NCBI RefSeq assembly: GCF_018882155.1
Contig: NZ_JACVPA010000001.1
Coordinates: 868,001 to 932,000 of the forward strand
Source of the DNA: Polynucleobacter nymphae
GTDB lineage: Bacteria; Pseudomonadota; Gammaproteobacteria; Burkholderiales; Burkholderiaceae
DNA: 64,000 nt
Direction: 5' to 3'
Part shown: positions 1-7,145 of the stretch, piece after piece
Layout of the letters: the number at the start of each line of letters is the position of its first letter
Position numbering within the stretch: the first letter of the stretch is position 1
The notes under the pieces: model-generated
Told to the model about the DNA's origin: nothing
Databases searched by the model: none
Seen by the model: the letters and a program-made list of their open reading frames with translations, nothing else
Position numbers and translations under genes: made by a program

Positions 1-1
1 G

Positions 2-1105
2 AATGGCAAAAAATTAATTGAAGTCAGTCATATGCTGATGGGGCCTTATTGCGGCATGCTACTTGCCGACTTGGGTATGGAAGTAATTAAAATTGAACCA
101 CCTGATGGCGATATCGCTAGAACGCTTGGCCCACACAATATTGATGGGCACAATGCGTATTTCGTCAGCCTCAATCGCAATAAAAAAAGTATCGTTTTAG
201 ACTTGACAACAGATGAAGGTCGTACAAAGTTTCATGAATTGGTTAGGCACGCCGATGGGCTCATTACCAATCTTCGGCCAGGAGCAATAAACTCACTCGG
301 GCTAACCTACGAGCATTTAAAACATATCAATCCTCAGATTGCTTGTGTCGCAATGACGGGCTTCGGTTTAGATAGCATTGAGTCAGAGCGGCCAGCGTAT
401 GACTACATTATCCAAGCGCTGGTAGGAATTATGGATCTGACTGGCGAGCCAGATGGCTACCCCACTAAAGCAGGCTATTCAGCTGTTGATAATTCAGCAG
501 GAATTATGGGTGCTCTTGGCTTACTCGCCCGCATCATCGAGGGCAAAGGCGGTCAAGTGGATATTGCGATGCATGATGTCATGCTATCTCAGTTAAATTA
601 TCTAGCAGGCGCATGGCTCAATGCACAAGAAAAACCAGTACGGCAATCAATGTCTGCTCATCCCTACATTGTCCCAGCTCAAGTATTTGAATCGGCAGAT
701 GGCTGGCTGACTCTCTTCATTACACATGATAATTTTTGGATTAAATTCTGCGAAATCATCAATCAGCCAGAATGGATCAAGGATGAGCGCTTCTGCACAA
801 TGAAAAAACGTGGCGAGCATCGAGGCTCTCTGATCCCGCTATTGAATGAAGTGATGAAAACCAAAACTTCCAAGGAGTGGGAAGAGCTCCTCATACCGCT
901 TGGAATTGTGATTGCTGGCATTAAGAACCTAAGTGATGCAATCAGTTCTCCGCTAACCGAAGATAGGGAGATGGTCATTAAACTCAAAGATGATGAAACT
1001 CATTTCCTCGCGATTGGTAACCCTATCAAAAATATCGGCTATCAAACCTCCTATAGCATCTCACCAAAACTAAACCAAGACCCAAACGCCCAATTTGAAT
1101 CATGA
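2..1105 (+). CDS. CaiB/BaiF-family (class III) CoA-transferase, 5' end outside the window
   Basis: Family III CoA-transferase, which moves coenzyme A between organic acids in the cytoplasm. The first ATG is at 32, but the frame is open back to base 2 and encodes NGKKLIEVSH, which matches the conserved N-terminal strand of this family just before the GPYCGMLLADLGMEVIKIEPP segment. The true start therefore lies upstream of the window and the gene is only partial here. Further family features are the LNRNKKSIVLDL stretch and an Asp in the AYDYIIQALVG segment, at the place expected for the catalytic Asp. The stop overlaps the next gene as ATGA at 1102-1105, so the acyl-CoA dehydrogenase is translationally coupled. 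The natural acid substrate cannot be told from sequence. Confidence 0.88.
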   Translation, partial: NGKKLIEVSHMLMGPYCGMLLADLGMEVIKIEPPDGDIARTLGPHNIDGHNAYFVSLNRNKKSIVLDLTTDEGRTKFHELVRHADGLITNLRPGAINSLGLTYEHLKHINPQIACVAMTGFGLDSIESERPAYDYIIQALVGIMDLTGEPDGYPTKAGYSAVDNSAGIMGALGLLARIIEGKGGQVDIAMHDVMLSQLNYLAGAWLNAQEKPVRQSMSAHPYIVPAQVFESADGWLTLFITHDNFWIKFCEIINQPEWIKDERFCTMKKRGEHRGSLIPLLNEVMKTKTSKEWEELLIPLGIVIAGIKNLSDAISSPLTEDREMVIKLKDDETHFLAIGNPIKNIGYQTSYSISPKLNQDPNAQFES

Positions 1106-2337
1106 TCGAACAAGCCCCAGACCACCTCCTCCCTATTATCGAAAAAATTGAGACTTTTTATACTAAAGAAGTTGAGCCGCGAGAGCATCAACTTCGCCAC
1201 AGACTCAGAAACAGTCTGGAATATATAGATCGAACTGGTAAATTACATCCAGAGATACAAGCAGCAAGACGAGAAATCATGCAAGCATCTGGAGAGGCGG
1301 GTTTATTTTCACTTCACCTGCCTCAATCGATTGGTGGTGGTGGGCTCTCAAGAACAGAAATGTTCTTCATCGAAGAAAAAGTATATTCCTATGGCATTGA
1401 TTTAGCGCCAGGGATCTTATCGTGGACTGATGGATCAACCCCAAGGTTAATTTTTGTCGGAGAAGAATTGCATGATCAATTTGTAAAGCCGCTAATCCTA
1501 GGGCAAAAAACCAGTTGTCATGCTGTCACAGAGCCCGATGCTGGCTCTAATTTATTTGATATGAAAACAAATGCTGTCCAAAAAGGGGATCAGTGGATCC
1601 TCAATGGTCACAAAGCCTACATCACCAACCCATTTGAAGCGGATATTGTGAACGTACTAGCCATTACTGACCCAGGTAATGGTAAAAAAAGTTTTAGCTA
1701 CTTTCAATTTGAGTCTAAAGACTATTTAGGTAAGGGCTTCAAGCATGGTCGGCTCAATCGAACCATGTTTGATGATGGCTTAACGGGTGAGTTACATTTT
1801 GAAAATCTGGAGCTCCCGCAGAGCGCAATGATTGGAAATCGTGGTCAAGGCTTTGAGATAGCACTGACATCGATCAACTGGACCAGAACGCGCCGTGGCG
1901 GAATGTGCTCTGCTTGGTCAAAACTGCTCATTGATAAAACTCTCGATCGCCTTAAACACAGAAAAGTGGGCGGAAAGCCTCTAGGTCGCAACCAAGGTCT
2001 ACAGTGGATGGTCTCGGATATGTATTTAGACTGGTATAGCGCCCGAGCTACCTCATTGGCATGCTTAAGAGATATCGAGAAGTTTGGTCCATGGTGGGAC
2101 ACCAATCGCCCTCAAGAACAAATTCGGCTTTTTGCATTAATGAAAATCGCCAATGATGAAGCCTTTTATCGGGTTGCTGATAAGGCATTACAACTGCATG
2201 GTGCCACCGGGATCATGAAAGATACTGTAGTAAATAAACTATTCCAAATTGCACGCAATCTTCGCATTCCAGGTGGTACTGATGAATCTCAACGAAATAC
2301 GATTGCGGAAACATTGGGATTAAACGCAAATATGTAA
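1102..2337 (+). CDS. Acyl-CoA dehydrogenase family flavoprotein
   Basis: 411-residue acyl-CoA dehydrogenase-like FAD enzyme, expected to introduce an alpha,beta double bond into an acyl-CoA. Visible features are the AVTEPDAGSNLFDMKTNA segment (flavin/substrate region), WILNGHKAYITN, the C-terminal helical domain with QLHGATGIMKDTVVNKLFQIARNLRIPGGTDESQRNTIAETLGL, and near-normal family length (about 380-410). It overlaps the CoA-transferase by 4 nt (ATGA) and the following phosphatase-superfamily gene by 1 nt (TAATG), so all are one transcript. Together with the CoA-transferase it suggests that a CoA-activated acid is oxidised. The C-terminal segment resembles family members acting on branched or unusual acyl groups, but I cannot assign a substrate. 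Confidence 0.87.
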   Translation: MIEQAPDHLLPIIEKIETFYTKEVEPREHQLRHRLRNSLEYIDRTGKLHPEIQAARREIMQASGEAGLFSLHLPQSIGGGGLSRTEMFFIEEKVYSYGIDLAPGILSWTDGSTPRLIFVGEELHDQFVKPLILGQKTSCHAVTEPDAGSNLFDMKTNAVQKGDQWILNGHKAYITNPFEADIVNVLAITDPGNGKKSFSYFQFESKDYLGKGFKHGRLNRTMFDDGLTGELHFENLELPQSAMIGNRGQGFEIALTSINWTRTRRGGMCSAWSKLLIDKTLDRLKHRKVGGKPLGRNQGLQWMVSDMYLDWYSARATSLACLRDIEKFGPWWDTNRPQEQIRLFALMKIANDEAFYRVADKALQLHGATGIMKDTVVNKLFQIARNLRIPGGTDESQRNTIAETLGLNANM

Positions 2338-3632
2338 TGAAAAAAATATTACTGATTCTTCTGGATGGTATTGGCGATCGTATTTACAAGGAGTTGGGAA
2401 ATTTAACTCCACTAGAGTATGCCAACACTCCAAATTTAGATCGTATTGCCAAACTAGGGGCATCGGCATCGGTCTACCCAATTAACCCTGGCATGGTTCC
2501 CCCGTCTGAATTGGCTCACTTTCATTTATTTGGCTACGAGAAAGATTTTTATCCGGGTAGAGCAGTATTTGAAAGCATGGGCTTTGGTATTACGCCACCC
2601 TCTAATGTTGCTGTAGCACACTTAGGCTTACGTCATGTAAGCCCATCAAATGAAGGACTCATGATCACCCCATGGTGGCCAGCATCGGAAGCCCAAGATG
2701 CCCAACAATTGGTGGAGTCAATCAGTCAATTTGAATCGTGTGGTATTCAGTTTGAAGTGAAATATATTGGTAACTCTGACTCTTTACTGATCATGCATGG
2801 TGGCTGTGAGGATATTACAGATTCCGATCCATTTATGCATACAGGGCGACCAGTACTCGAAATTCAAGCGCTTGATTCTAGTAAAAACCATAGCGGCGCT
2901 CAGAATACAGCTAAAGCATTAAATCATTATTTAAGATGGACTCATGAGGTACTCTCAAGGCACCCCATTAATTCCCAAAGGGTGCTGGATGGTAAGTTAC
3001 CTCTGAATATGACTGTTACTAAGTGGCCTGGTAAGCATCAAGAACTCATGAGCTTCTATCAAAAAACAGGTTTAACTGCTTCTTTAATTGCATCAGCGCC
3101 AATGTATAAAGGCATGGCCAGCGTATTGCAAATGAATTACATCGAGGTTGCTGAAGGCGATCCTAGCTGCGAAATGATTGATAAGTTAGTAGCAGCTAAG
3201 CATGCCTTTGATCATGGCTGTGATTTTGTGCATCTTCATACTAAGGCCGCTGATGAAGCTGCGCATAGTCATTCCCCACTAAACAAGGCCCAAGTCATTG
3301 AGGCTATTGATGTTGGCATTTCTGCTCTTTGGGATTGGGAAAAGCTACAGGAAGACTTCCTGATAGCGGTTACCGCAGATCACTGCACTCCAAGTCATGG
3401 TCCAATGCTCCACTCAGGTGAATCTGTACCCCTTTCTTTAATGGGTGAAGGAGTTCGGGTGGATTCAGTAAATCATTTTTCTGAAAGATTATCTGTCGGT
3501 GGTTCGCTGGGTCAACTATGCAGCCGTGATCTAATGCCCATACTCTTAAACGCATCAAACCGGTCTCATTTTTTGGGCGGCAAGCCAAATGCTTATGAGA
3601 GTTTTGGAATTACCTCATTTAAGGCGCTGTAA
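2337..3632 (+). CDS. ApgM-like (archaeal-type) cofactor-independent phosphoglycerate mutase homologue
   Basis: 431-residue alkaline-phosphatase-superfamily protein of the archaeal-type 2,3-bisphosphoglycerate-independent phosphoglycerate mutase family. It has the N-terminal metal Asp (LLDGIGDR, Asp10), the phosphoserine-type residue in PPSELAHFHLFGYEKD (Ser57), the GRAVFESMGFG segment and the C-terminal metal site TADHCTPSHGPMLHSG. Length is usual for ApgM (about 400-430). A glycolytic role is unlikely because it sits inside a CoA-transferase/acyl-CoA dehydrogenase operon next to an NMNAT-like nucleotidyltransferase. ApgM homologues with non-glycolytic roles are known in phosphonate/phosphinate pathways (PhpH of phosphinothricin tripeptide synthesis). 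Family call is firm; the reaction is unknown. Confidence 0.82.
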   Translation: MKKILLILLDGIGDRIYKELGNLTPLEYANTPNLDRIAKLGASASVYPINPGMVPPSELAHFHLFGYEKDFYPGRAVFESMGFGITPPSNVAVAHLGLRHVSPSNEGLMITPWWPASEAQDAQQLVESISQFESCGIQFEVKYIGNSDSLLIMHGGCEDITDSDPFMHTGRPVLEIQALDSSKNHSGAQNTAKALNHYLRWTHEVLSRHPINSQRVLDGKLPLNMTVTKWPGKHQELMSFYQKTGLTASLIASAPMYKGMASVLQMNYIEVAEGDPSCEMIDKLVAAKHAFDHGCDFVHLHTKAADEAAHSHSPLNKAQVIEAIDVGISALWDWEKLQEDFLIAVTADHCTPSHGPMLHSGESVPLSLMGEGVRVDSVNHFSERLSVGGSLGQLCSRDLMPILLNASNRSHFLGGKPNAYESFGITSFKAL

Positions 3633-3634
3633 AA

Positions 3635-4219
3635 ATGCAGTCGCATAAACCATTCAAATATGCTGTTGCTCATGGCCGCTTTCAGCCTTTTCATAACGAG
3701 CATTTAGCCTATTTAAGATGGGCTCATAGTTATGGAACTCATTTATTTATTGGCATTACCAACTTCGACCGCACTGCTATTCAAAAAGAGAGCACTAGCA
3801 ACCATCGTCATACAGCATTTGCAAACCCTTTTACGTATTGGGAGCGCGCAGCAATGATTCAGGGTGCGCTATTAGAAGCTGGTGTTGATCCATCTCAATT
3901 TACTATCGTTGCCCTGCCGATCCATGCTCCAGAAAAATGGCCTGAGTTTGTGCCAACCTATCCCAATGAAAGCATTCATTTACTCCGCGTATTCTCCGAA
4001 TGGGAGCAAGAAAAAGTTAGCCGCTTGCAGTCAGCAGGCTACAAAGTCATTACTGAAATAGGTTCACCAAAATTGATCAGCGCCTCCACCATCAGAGAAG
4101 CGATTCTGTTTGATAGAAATTATTCCGATCTCGTGCCACCAGCAGTAGCAGTGTGGCTAAAAAGAATGAATGCTAAATCAAGATTAGAAAGTTTGAATGC
4201 TTTAGAAAGCCAAGAGTAA
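3635..4219 (+). CDS. NMN adenylyltransferase-like nucleotidyltransferase
   Basis: 194-residue Rossmann nucleotidyltransferase. The N-terminal HGRFQPFHNEHL (residues 13-24) is the nucleotide-binding GRFQPxHxxH signature, and LISASTIREAI is the C-terminal ISxSxIR motif that binds the nucleotide phosphates. Archaeal NMN adenylyltransferases are usually about 170 residues, so this one is slightly long. It starts 2 nt after the ApgM-like stop and ends the operon. A plain NAD role is possible, but pairing with an ApgM homologue is also seen in phosphinothricin biosynthesis, where the NMNAT-like PhpF transfers CMP to a phosphonate. Which nucleotide and acceptor are used here cannot be read from the sequence. 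Confidence 0.8.
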   Translation: MQSHKPFKYAVAHGRFQPFHNEHLAYLRWAHSYGTHLFIGITNFDRTAIQKESTSNHRHTAFANPFTYWERAAMIQGALLEAGVDPSQFTIVALPIHAPEKWPEFVPTYPNESIHLLRVFSEWEQEKVSRLQSAGYKVITEIGSPKLISASTIREAILFDRNYSDLVPPAVAVWLKRMNAKSRLESLNALESQE

Positions 4220-4241: not shown

Positions 4242-4787
4242 TTACCTATTTTTGATAATCTTTAGAATATTTTTGAATTGGGGATGCTCTGAGGTTTTGA
4301 GCCACTCAAAGACGAGCATTTCAGCGCCTAGCATAGGCATTTTTTGCTGACGCATACGCTCCATAGCTAGCTGCTTATCTTCTACCCTTCTGCTACCGCA
4401 GGCCTCTGGTACTACTGCCACCTCATAGCCTAGCGCCTGCAATCCCAAGGCCGTTTGTATCAAGCAGACATGCGCCTCACAACCAGCCAGAACGACTTGA
4501 GTGATAGCAGGATTGATAGCCTTAATATCCTTTGCCAAGCCATCTGCAGCGCCATTAAAGGAATGCTTTACGAAGGTCTGATCACAAAACGCTTTAATAC
4601 GCTCATCATTTGGCCCTAGCCCATCTGGATTTTGCTCAGTTCCTAGAATGGGGATTGCTAGAGCTTGCGCTACCTGAGCAAGAAAGAGCGCTGATGCAAT
4701 CGCATTTTCACTCTCATGAATACTGGGCATCAAACGGGTTTGATAGTCAATCAGAATAAGGGCACTAGTGTCTTGGTTGATCATCAT
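4242..4787 (-). CDS. Isochorismatase-family cysteine hydrolase
   Basis: 181-residue cytoplasmic cysteine hydrolase of the isochorismatase/YcaC superfamily. The N-terminal Asp is in ALILIDYQTRLMPSI, the nucleophile is the second Cys in AGCEAHVCLIQTALGL, and VVPEACGSR follows the nucleophile as in the family. It lies 7 nt downstream of the TetR gene on the same strand and is likely co-transcribed with it. Two successive ATG codons are possible starts. The substrate is unknown; simple ring- or amide-type substrates are common in the family. Confidence 0.82.
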   Translation of the reverse strand: MMINQDTSALILIDYQTRLMPSIHESENAIASALFLAQVAQALAIPILGTEQNPDGLGPNDERIKAFCDQTFVKHSFNGAADGLAKDIKAINPAITQVVLAGCEAHVCLIQTALGLQALGYEVAVVPEACGSRRVEDKQLAMERMRQQKMPMLGAEMLVFEWLKTSEHPQFKNILKIIKNR

Positions 4788-4794
4788 GAAGTCT

Positions 4795-5460
4795 TTATTT
4801 TTTAATGGGCAAGCGTAGTGCTAATTTATCTAGGTAGTGGGTGATTAATTCATCGGCGCCTTTACCAAACATCCGAATGCGGCCTGTATGGTTTAGTAAT
4901 AGTACGCCAACAATATGCGCAAAAATAGCGGTTAACTCCGTATCTACATCTTTTTTACTACACCCTAACTTGATCAGCGCTGCCTCTTGGTGTTGCATCG
5001 CTGCTCTGAGGCGCGCATTTAACTCTGAGTCCCACTCGTTCGTGAGTCCTCTGGGCTTGAGTCCCTGGAAGAGATAAAACCCCAAATCCAAATCGCGCGG
5101 ATTGTCTCGATAGAACTCATAAAAAGCTAAGGCACTTTTACGCAGCTCCTCAAGTGCGGTCTGCTGCTTCCGCTCAAGCGAAATATCCTCTGCAGCCAGA
5201 TTTACGAAATCATTTAAACGCTCGAGCGATTCAGCCAGTAAAGCGCCATAGATTTCTTCTTTGCTCCCAAAGTAACTATAAATAGCACCAGCCGTATAAC
5301 CCGCTCGTTTTGCAATTTCTCGCATGCTGACGGCCTCTAATCCCAACTCAATAAATACTGCTCTAGCAGCGCTCAAAATATGCTCACGCCGCGCATCAGC
5401 CAAAGCTTGTTGACGCACATCTCTTGGGGAGGCAATGGCCTGATTTATGGCTTGATTCAT
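4795..5460 (-). CDS. TetR/AcrR-family transcriptional regulator
   Basis: 221-residue TetR-family repressor. The N-terminal DNA-binding domain (about residues 25-72) has the standard three-helix pattern ILSAARAVFIELGLEAVSMREIAKRAGYTAGAIYSYFGSKEEIY, followed by an all-helical ligand-binding domain. It is divergent from the HpaB/AbfD-family gene. The 95-nt gap between them holds a perfect 19-bp inverted repeat that overlaps the hpaB-like promoter, so it most likely represses that gene and itself. The ligand is not deducible. Confidence 0.92.
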   Translation of the reverse strand: MNQAINQAIASPRDVRQQALADARREHILSAARAVFIELGLEAVSMREIAKRAGYTAGAIYSYFGSKEEIYGALLAESLERLNDFVNLAAEDISLERKQQTALEELRKSALAFYEFYRDNPRDLDLGFYLFQGLKPRGLTNEWDSELNARLRAAMQHQEAALIKLGCSKKDVDTELTAIFAHIVGVLLLNHTGRIRMFGKGADELITHYLDKLALRLPIKK

Positions 5461-5485
5461 TGCTTAATTATACATATATCTTAAT

Positions 5486-5504
5486 AATTGAACACTGTTC
5501 AATT
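5486..5504. promoter_or_regulatory. Perfect inverted repeat, likely TetR operator
   Basis: AATTGAAC-ACT-GTTCAATT: two perfect 8-bp arms around a 3-bp centre, midway between the divergent tetR and hpaB-like genes. Size and symmetry are typical of TetR-family operators. The left arm contains the -35 hexamer of the rightward promoter, so a bound repressor would block RNA polymerase. Confidence 0.72.
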
Positions 5505-5516
5505 TATGTGTATGAT
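5488..5516 (+). promoter_or_regulatory. Sigma70-type promoter for the HpaB/AbfD-family gene
   Basis: TTGAAC (5488-5493) and TATGAT (5511-5516) are separated by exactly 17 bp and lie 40 bp upstream of the ATG at 5556. The -35 is inside the inverted repeat at 5486-5504. Confidence 0.65.
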
Positions 5517-5555
5517 CGGGTAACTAACTGATTTAACTACCCATTAAGGCCCAAT

Positions 5556-7145
5556 ATGAGTCAAAGCACCTCCCAATTCATGACCAGCAAGGATTATCAA
5601 GAATCGCTGCGTAAATTAAAGCCGGTCGTCTATGTTGATGGACGCCTAGTTGAATCCGTAGCCGATGAAGCAATGTTGAGACCTGGAGTGCAAGCTTTGG
5701 GTGTGACTTATGACATGGTGCATGACCCTGCTTTAGCACCTCTCATGTTAGCAAGCTCTGATGGCAAAACCGTTCCAAGAATGTTGCATATCAATGAGTC
5801 CTCCGGTGATCTGCTGAATAAATTAGAAGCGGTGCGCGTCTTATGTCAAGAAACCGGTTGCGCGCAACGTTATCTAGCGCACGATGCCTTAAACGCGATT
5901 GGGCAAGTATCCGCTCGGATTGATGATGCCCATGGTAGCAATGATCATCGCGCTAAATTTGCAGAGTATCTTGCCCATGTACAGAAAAATGATTTGGCCT
6001 TAGGTATTGCAATGACCGATGCTAAAGGTGATCGCTCCCTTAAACCGCATGAACAAGCAAACCCAGATACCTACGTGCATATCGTTTCTCAAGATGCCAA
6101 AGGAGTAGTCATTTCTGGAACTAAAGCCATCGTTACTGGTGCGCCGTATATGCATGAGTTCTTAGTAATGCCAGGTCGCAATATGAGTAAGGAAGATGCC
6201 GCGTTTGCCATTTGTTGCGCTGTCCCAGTGGATGCTAAAGGTATTACTATCGTTGCCCGCCCTGCTGGGCGCCCAGGCGAAAAGGTTGAACATGGCAAGC
6301 CCCTCTTTTCTAGCAAGTATGGTCAATCAACTGGTGTAGTGATCTTTGATAAGGTATTTGTTCCTTGGGATCGCGTTTTCTACGCAGGTGAATGGGAGCA
6401 CTCCAGTGTTTTAACGTATAGCTACGCTACTCATCACCGCCATAGTTGTATTGCTGCGAGAGCTGGCTTTGGTGACCTCTTGATTGGTGCTGGAGCATTG
6501 ATGTGTGAAGCTAATGGCTTTGATCCAGAAACTAAATCCAATCTGCGTGACCCCATGGTTGATCTCATTAAGATCACTGAAGGATTTTATGCTTGTGGCG
6601 TTGCTGCCAGTGTGTATGGCACACAAGACCCTTACAGCAAATCTTTTATGCCTGAACCCGTGTTTTCAAATATCGGGAAACTCTTATTAGCTACCCAAAT
6701 TTATGATATGCATCGTCTTGCTCATGAGGTATCAGGCGGGCTAATTGTGGCTCTGCCTGGACCAGACGAAGATCACAATCCAGCAACAGCTGCTACCTTA
6801 GCTGAAGTATTACGCGCTAATCCTGCAGTTCCTTACGATAAGCGTATTGAAGTCGCGCGCTTTATTGAAGATTTGACCGCCTCTTATCAAGGTGGCTGGT
6901 ACTCCGTCATTAGCCTGCATGGCGGCGGCTCGCCAGCAGCCATGAGAAAAGAAATCTATCGTCAATATCCTATTGGCAACAAAGTAGAGTTGGTTGAAAG
7001 ACTATTAGACCGTGGTGTTCTCACTAGCAATCAGGAGCGTGCTATTACCAAGAATAAGCAGCCGGGACGCTGCTGTGATCAAGGTTGTAGCGCTCCAGGT
7101 CAAGCAGTGATGGTGCCGCTACCTGAACCAGGCAGACGAACTTAA
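5556..7145 (+). CDS. HpaB/AbfD-family flavoenzyme (4-hydroxyphenylacetate 3-hydroxylase family)
   Basis: 529-residue member of the family that includes the FADH2-using monooxygenase HpaB and the iron-sulfur/FAD enzyme 4-hydroxybutyryl-CoA dehydratase (AbfD). The overall pattern (YxESLRKLKPxVY, MTDAKGDR, VISGTKAIVTG, HHRHSC, AHEVSGGLIVALP, SLHGGGSPAAMRKEI) is closest to AbfD. Of the four [4Fe-4S] ligands of AbfD, only Cys102 and His294 have counterparts; the other two positions read Tyr106 and Ala301. It may therefore be an FAD-only dehydrogenase or oxygenase. An extra C-terminal tail carries GRCCDQGC (Cys506, Cys507, Cys511), a possible metal or redox site. It is monocistronic and divergent from a TetR gene. 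Confidence 0.85.
   Translation: MSQSTSQFMTSKDYQESLRKLKPVVYVDGRLVESVADEAMLRPGVQALGVTYDMVHDPALAPLMLASSDGKTVPRMLHINESSGDLLNKLEAVRVLCQETGCAQRYLAHDALNAIGQVSARIDDAHGSNDHRAKFAEYLAHVQKNDLALGIAMTDAKGDRSLKPHEQANPDTYVHIVSQDAKGVVISGTKAIVTGAPYMHEFLVMPGRNMSKEDAAFAICCAVPVDAKGITIVARPAGRPGEKVEHGKPLFSSKYGQSTGVVIFDKVFVPWDRVFYAGEWEHSSVLTYSYATHHRHSCIAARAGFGDLLIGAGALMCEANGFDPETKSNLRDPMVDLIKITEGFYACGVAASVYGTQDPYSKSFMPEPVFSNIGKLLLATQIYDMHRLAHEVSGGLIVALPGPDEDHNPATAATLAEVLRANPAVPYDKRIEVARFIEDLTASYQGGWYSVISLHGGGSPAAMRKEIYRQYPIGNKVELVERLLDRGVLTSNQERAITKNKQPGRCCDQGCSAPGQAVMVPLPEPGRRT

Follow-up and report, generated by a model that had tools for sequence, protein, structure and literature searches.

The left end of the stretch analyzed here, a 64-kb piece of the Polynucleobacter nymphae genome (C9:868001-932000; genome size 2.13 Mb, completeness 99.97%) that we call the window, carries an operon in which a gene for an acyl-CoA dehydrogenase (ACAD)-like flavoprotein is followed by genes for an ApgM-like phosphotransferase and an NMNAT-like nucleotidyltransferase. 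We found this trio in three distant lineages, namely the window lineage, Actinomycetota and Halobacteria, and conclude that it very probably constitutes a single functional, mobile module. Outside the window lineage, the module has SelD or a SelD-related protein as its recurring partner. We lean toward a module that handles a selenium- or sulfur-bearing phosphate, and we tentatively propose, with rather less confidence, that the three genes use selenophosphate.

At a threshold of 1e-20, the ApgM-like protein had a match in one of 200 family genomes, its own, and at 1e-10 in 7 of 369 class genomes, that is, its own and six others at 28-32% identity (L036-L041). These six matches look like ordinary ApgM and were set aside, given that no ACAD-like, NMNAT-like or SelD query was found in the stretches taken from these genomes. 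The family profile of the NMNAT-like protein recovered 3 of 398 phylum genomes at 1e-15, the window's own and two from one genus of another class (G670 and G773). When 72,556 plasmid records were searched, the ApgM-like protein gave 17 matches, including five Rhodococcus and six Halobaculum records, and the window NMNAT-like protein gave 16, comprising those eleven together with two other Rhodococcus records, Halorussus, Treponema and Enterococcus. The viral contigs searched held no relatives of module proteins; 11 phage records matched, all at less than 60% identity and annotated as NMNAT/Nudix-type or cytidyltransferase.

In Rhodococcus, the module reads tetR, ACAD, selD, NMNAT-like and ApgM-like, the last four genes overlapping by 4 nt each (order established at the sequence level in two records and by feature names in all five), and in Halobaculum it reads ACAD, ApgM-like, SelD-related and NMNAT-like in 6/6 records (with ACAD taken from the annotation, not from tblastn, in L060 and L061). 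Identities between the window, Rhodococcus and four Halobaculum records are 34-43% for ACAD, 30-35% for the ApgM-like and 33-40% for the NMNAT-like protein. The first-pass annotation of the window had made its interpretation hinge on the ApgM-like and NMNAT-like genes being kept together elsewhere, which these plasmids bear out. When 17 ApgM proteins were placed in a tree, the nine from the module fell on one side of a branch with support 100/99, in a small sample in which the Rhodococcus row is long. The tree leaves out L016 and L061 (near copies), H2, H4 and H10 (module) and H13-H15 and H17 (other ApgM); H10 covers 80% of the ApgM-like query and may be incomplete. The ApgM proteins of Macrococcus and Bacteroidales plasmids, with one record examined for each, were set aside as other ApgM. 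On the Macrococcus plasmid (L015:6368-9059), the ApgM-family gene lies directly behind a DASS anion symporter gene, with a divergent LysR gene, a setting that does not look glycolytic.

This recurrence bears on whether the window simply holds an ordinary fatty-acid operon to which an unusual glycolytic mutase and an enzyme of NAD metabolism have been added. Beta-oxidation-type genes do lie upstream of the trio, but the trio stands in Actinomycetota and Halobacteria without them, its ApgM-like and NMNAT-like proteins score below the housekeeping cut-offs, and the ApgM-like gene is missing from 199/200 family genomes, making such an operon hardly credible. On the same grounds of sub-cut-off scores, rarity in the family and recurrence of the trio elsewhere, we reject a glycolysis or NAD operon, as the first-pass annotation had already done. 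Its further suggestion of an undescribed pathway is plausible, and we found no description of the gene set in the literature searched (titles and abstract openings).

The link to SelD comes from the relatives. A selD gene adjoins the NMNAT-like gene inside the module in 5/5 Rhodococcus module records, and a SelD-related gene adjoins it in 7/7 haloarchaeal records (6/6 Halobaculum and Halorussus), such that the dikinase of the module plasmid records is SelD or SelD-related in 11/11. The seven plasmid records with the SelD-related haloarchaeal protein are exactly the seven haloarchaeal records with an NMNAT-like gene, of which the Halorussus record has both genes without ACAD and ApgM. Since true SelD is found at 1e-20 in just 166 of 72,556 plasmid records, a general abundance of SelD on plasmids does not account for this adjacency. 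The Rhodococcus SelD exceeds the cut-offs of two curated models (371 vs 125 and 351 vs 299 bits). Moreover, 10/10 aligned SelD or SelD-related proteins retain a Cys-x-x-Lys motif and four Asp, which, by the numbering of the E. coli enzyme, are presumably the essential ones. In the parts of PMC4210487 drawn on here, this motif, four aspartates and an asparagine are described as essential in E. coli SelD. In a tree of NMNAT-like proteins, the window protein clusters with its SelD-adjacent counterparts from Rhodococcus and haloarchaea (support 94/97), apart from those linked to phosphoenolpyruvate (PEP) synthase-like genes, and G670 and G773 fall outside this group.

The window itself shows only part of the operon. 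As the first-pass annotation had noted, its four genes are closely joined: the family III CoA-transferase and ACAD-like genes share an ATGA overlap (end 1105, start 1102), the ACAD-like and ApgM-like genes meet in TAATG at 2337, and 2 nt separate the ApgM-like from the NMNAT-like gene (end 3632, start 3635). In the 10 kb further left we found four more genes on the same strand with gaps of at most 9 nt, encoding an OB-fold protein (PF01796), a thiolase, a short-chain dehydrogenase/reductase (SDR) and an enoyl-CoA hydratase. The whole operon thus comprises eight genes (L003:6890-14219) and extends 3.1 kb beyond the left edge of the window, in the order OB-fold, thiolase, SDR, enoyl-CoA hydratase, family III CoA-transferase, ACAD-like, ApgM-like and NMNAT-like; the CoA-transferase probably starts with the ATG at L003:9966, which lies 35 bases to the left of window base 1. 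To judge from their sequences, the first five genes look like acyl-CoA chain chemistry of the beta-oxidation type. Two relatives from metagenome-assembled genomes labelled betaproteobacteria, L004 and L005, have the identical eight-gene order, with ApgM-like proteins 94% and 88% identical to that of the window, respectively, indicating that the operon is not an assembly artefact. In a comparison of module loci, the CoA-transferase was not found in the Rhodococcus or Halobaculum module.

The first-pass annotation had suggested a phosphonate pathway for the operon by analogy with phosphinothricin tripeptide biosynthesis, naming the ApgM-type enzyme PhpH, which the curated library (NF038358) calls PhpG and describes as a transferase using the product of PhpF. 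According to the portions of PMC6697681 and PMC8976061 consulted, PhpF is a PF01467 enzyme making CMP-5′-phosphonoformate. The PhpF and PhpG pair combines the same folds as the NMNAT-like and ApgM-like proteins, and the latter does match the PhpG model, but its score of 186.4 bits is far below the cut-off of 545, and the partners of the window pair are ACAD-like and, elsewhere, SelD. In addition, the best PEP mutase scores in the genome were 140.5 and 118.6 bits against a cut-off of 319.55, a comparison in which 0/14 control genomes passed, so that it has no positive control. Extending the view to the left, as the first-pass annotation had advised, revealed nothing enolase- or PEP-mutase-like in the open reading frames read by eye over about 20 kb, and the left flank is of the beta-oxidation type. 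With no PEP mutase over the cut-off, a phosphonate pathway is not supported, and one of the phosphinothricin type appears very improbable. By analogy, the module may work like the PhpF/PhpG pair without being a member of that system.

The three module proteins depart from their best-known relatives at specific positions. The NMNAT-like protein resembles archaeal nicotinamide mononucleotide (NMN) adenylyltransferase (PDB 1f9a, 1ej2; profile match E 6.3e-27) and retains GRFQPxH and the C-terminal nucleotide motif, but it does not keep the YSGNPL stretch, which we take to bind NMN, and it falls under the NMN adenylyltransferase cut-offs (TIGR01527, 45.9 vs 181.2 bits; NF002243, 59.3 vs 127 bits). 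The loss of YSGNPL from a protein that keeps its nucleotide motifs points to an acceptor other than NMN. The ApgM-like protein aligns over nearly its full length with archaeal-type ApgM phosphoglycerate mutase (PDB 2zkt, E 1.5e-60); Ser57, present in 8/8 aligned module proteins, aligns with a Ser of 2zkt, and the metal-site residues D10, D306, H310, D348, H349 and H359 are invariant. Unlike that mutase, it stays below the TIGR00306 cut-off (290.5 vs 320 bits), sits on a separate branch and does not belong to the core gene set of the family. In the ACAD-like protein, the YEGT of three PDB chains is replaced by PGGT in the window, L004 and L005 and by PAG[TSA] in the other five aligned proteins, and a second glutamate position, presumably the one known from isovaleryl-CoA dehydrogenase, holds Thr or Arg, while an NWxRxxRxGMC stretch is invariant. 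Without the catalytic Glu found in YEGT, this protein probably does not act as a standard dehydrogenase, as judged from its sequence.

Based on these features, we infer the following reactions, including a use of selenium by the window copy. SelD would make selenophosphate, being encoded in the module in Rhodococcus, replaced by the SelD-related protein in Halobaculum and supplied by the host core selD in the window genus. The NMNAT-like enzyme would then condense a nucleoside triphosphate with selenophosphate or its phosphorylated product, releasing pyrophosphate, and the ApgM-like metalloenzyme would transfer the activated group, with an acid or alcohol as acceptor, in the manner for which PhpG is named with CMP-phosphonoformate. 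The ACAD-like flavoprotein, which lacks the usual base, might act on a CoA-linked acid by a non-standard reaction, be it elimination, reduction or C-Se chemistry, and the thiolase, SDR, hydratase and CoA-transferase of the window operon would make or use the CoA-linked chain.

A separate SelD case is found in G670 and G773, where an HAD-NMNAT-like fusion lies in one gene run with selD, together with adenosine-deaminase-like, APH-type, Hsp70-like and B12-radical SAM genes (L052:3330-12893; L053). The SelD of G670 scores 309 bits against a cut-off of 125. Among the 48 genomes of their class, two have the NMNAT-like gene and seven have selD; within the genus (eight genomes), selD occurs in the two genomes that have the NMNAT-like gene and in no others, while mnmH was found in 0/8 and selB over the cut-off in 0/8. 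Judged by mnmH and selB alone, the selD of G670 and G773 is an orphan in the sense used in the parts of PMC5029168 cited here.

Several observations weigh against a selenium role. The eight-gene window operon has no selD, the nearest gene over the cut-off being 309 kb away (C9:558597-559526), and this host selD is accounted for by mnmH (C9:314333-315247 in the window genome): selD is present in 97/101 genomes of the host genus and mnmH in 96/101, both in 79/79 of the good-quality genomes. Nor was selD found in the L004 or L005 module loci. As a side result, no tRNA was seen beside the host core selD. Lacking selD in its operon, the window copy is the weakest case for selenium, although selD is near-universal in the genus and a module residing there could presumably dispense with a copy of its own. 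The haloarchaeal protein scores below the cut-off of the SelD model (28 vs 125 bits) and also under that of the SelD-related model NF038049 (100-173 vs 250 bits); at the position of the essential Asn of E. coli SelD, L042 and L052 have His (2/10, by eye); the selD of G773 was read as two overlapping frames; and the key branches of the ApgM and NMNAT-like trees rest on long rows and few sequences. Finally, four NMNAT-like loci, those of Treponema, Enterococcus gilvus, R. opacus pKNR and R. pyridinivorans pRJH2, carry a PEP-synthase-like gene and not selD (two of the four dikinases having been scanned by model).

Considering SelD-linked and PEP-synthase-linked loci together, the NMNAT-like subfamily overall is tied to ATP-using dikinases, SelD being one of them. 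The NMNAT-like enzyme might therefore accompany such dikinases generally, and the window trio might activate and process an ordinary phosphorylated or charged organic acid supplied through the beta-oxidation-type genes, with no selenium involved. This is consistent not only with the four PEP-synthase-linked loci but also with a DHH-DHHA2 protein that follows loci of both kinds (L042:8822-9754; L046:8211-9137) and with the acyl-CoA genes of an operon without selD. On the other hand, the window NMNAT-like protein groups with SelD-adjacent proteins, the dikinase in the module, where present, is always SelD or SelD-related in the plasmid records, and the window operon has no dikinase gene; we regard an explanation without selenium as rather unlikely, while taking it seriously. 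As a separate observation, Halobaculum lipolyticum has a PEP/pyruvate-binding gene divergent from the module (L047:826-3633), placing both dikinase types near one module.

A sulfur version, in which the SelD-type enzyme and the module would handle thiophosphate at least in haloarchaea, appears improbable. In its favor, the haloarchaeal partner matches NF038049, a model for SelD-related proteins of putative sulfur metabolism, the passages of PMC4210487 used here propose thiophosphate for the SelD-like family of that study, and a cysteine-desulfurase-type gene lies beside the Treponema NMNAT-like gene; the match to NF038049, however, is under the model cut-off, and in Rhodococcus and G670 the SelD exceeds the cut-off of the true SelD model. 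The Treponema saccharophilum plasmid has NMNAT-like, PEP-synthase-like, cysteine-desulfurase-type and viperin-type genes in a row (L043:7986-12349).

Downstream of the operon (Table 1), the isochorismatase-type gene is absent from the Rhodococcus and Halobaculum feature tables inspected, and its position beside the module may be coincidence, as the family is common. An isochorismatase-like gene is listed near orphan selD genes in the portion of PMC5029168 consulted. An HpaB-like gene (PF11794, PF03241) diverges from tetR (region 4795-7145), and the palindrome between them is intact in L004 and has one mismatch in L005. We set this putative operator aside as proof of co-regulation, given that no copy is present in the operon promoter and that the Rhodococcus promoter matches the core only, with five mismatches (by eye).

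Table 1. Features at the left end of the window (positions in the window)
Feature	Position	Strand	Basis or remark
Family III CoA-transferase	1..1105	+	PF02515, 335 bits; start cut by window edge
ACAD-like flavoprotein, module gene	1102..2337	+	PF00441, PF02770, PF02771; alignments; recurrence
ApgM-like phosphotransferase, module gene	2337..3632	+	PF01676, PF10143; own tree branch
NMNAT-like nucleotidyltransferase, module gene	3635..4219	+	PF01467, 29.9 bits vs cut-off 21
Isochorismatase-type hydrolase	4242..4787	-	PF00857; kept in L004 and L005; link to module unproven
TetR regulator	4795..5460	-	36% identity over 200 residues to the TetR heading the Rhodococcus module
Perfect 9+1+9 palindrome, probable (predicted) TetR operator	5486..5504	.	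Between tetR and HpaB-like gene

Uses of selenium that depend on SelD include selenocysteine, selenouridine, the molybdoenzyme cofactor and selenoneine-type metabolites. The sen cluster (selenoneine; PMC9814287) likewise has selD clustered with enzymes that are not selenoproteins, but by their Pfam/NCBIfam names the module proteins are of the ACAD, ApgM and NMNAT types. The module could represent a further SelD-dependent use of selenium, in which nucleotide-activated selenophosphate serves selenophosphoryl transfer by the ApgM-like enzyme and yields a selenium-containing acid shaped by the ACAD that lacks the usual base; such a pathway, plasmid-borne in bacteria and haloarchaea, would explain some orphan selD genes, a full scenario that we consider possible and rather doubtful. 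In the parts of PMC5029168 and PMC4210487 drawn on here, orphan selD genes are taken as a sign of an unknown selenium trait, and the authors of the selenoneine work, as quoted in PMC9814287, expected more selenium metabolites. The module offers a small, concrete and testable gene set, part of which lies on plasmids of Rhodococcus and Halobaculum strains that are in culture. Even without a role for selenium, it would represent a pair of a nucleotidyltransferase and an ApgM-type transferase acting outside phosphonate biosynthesis.

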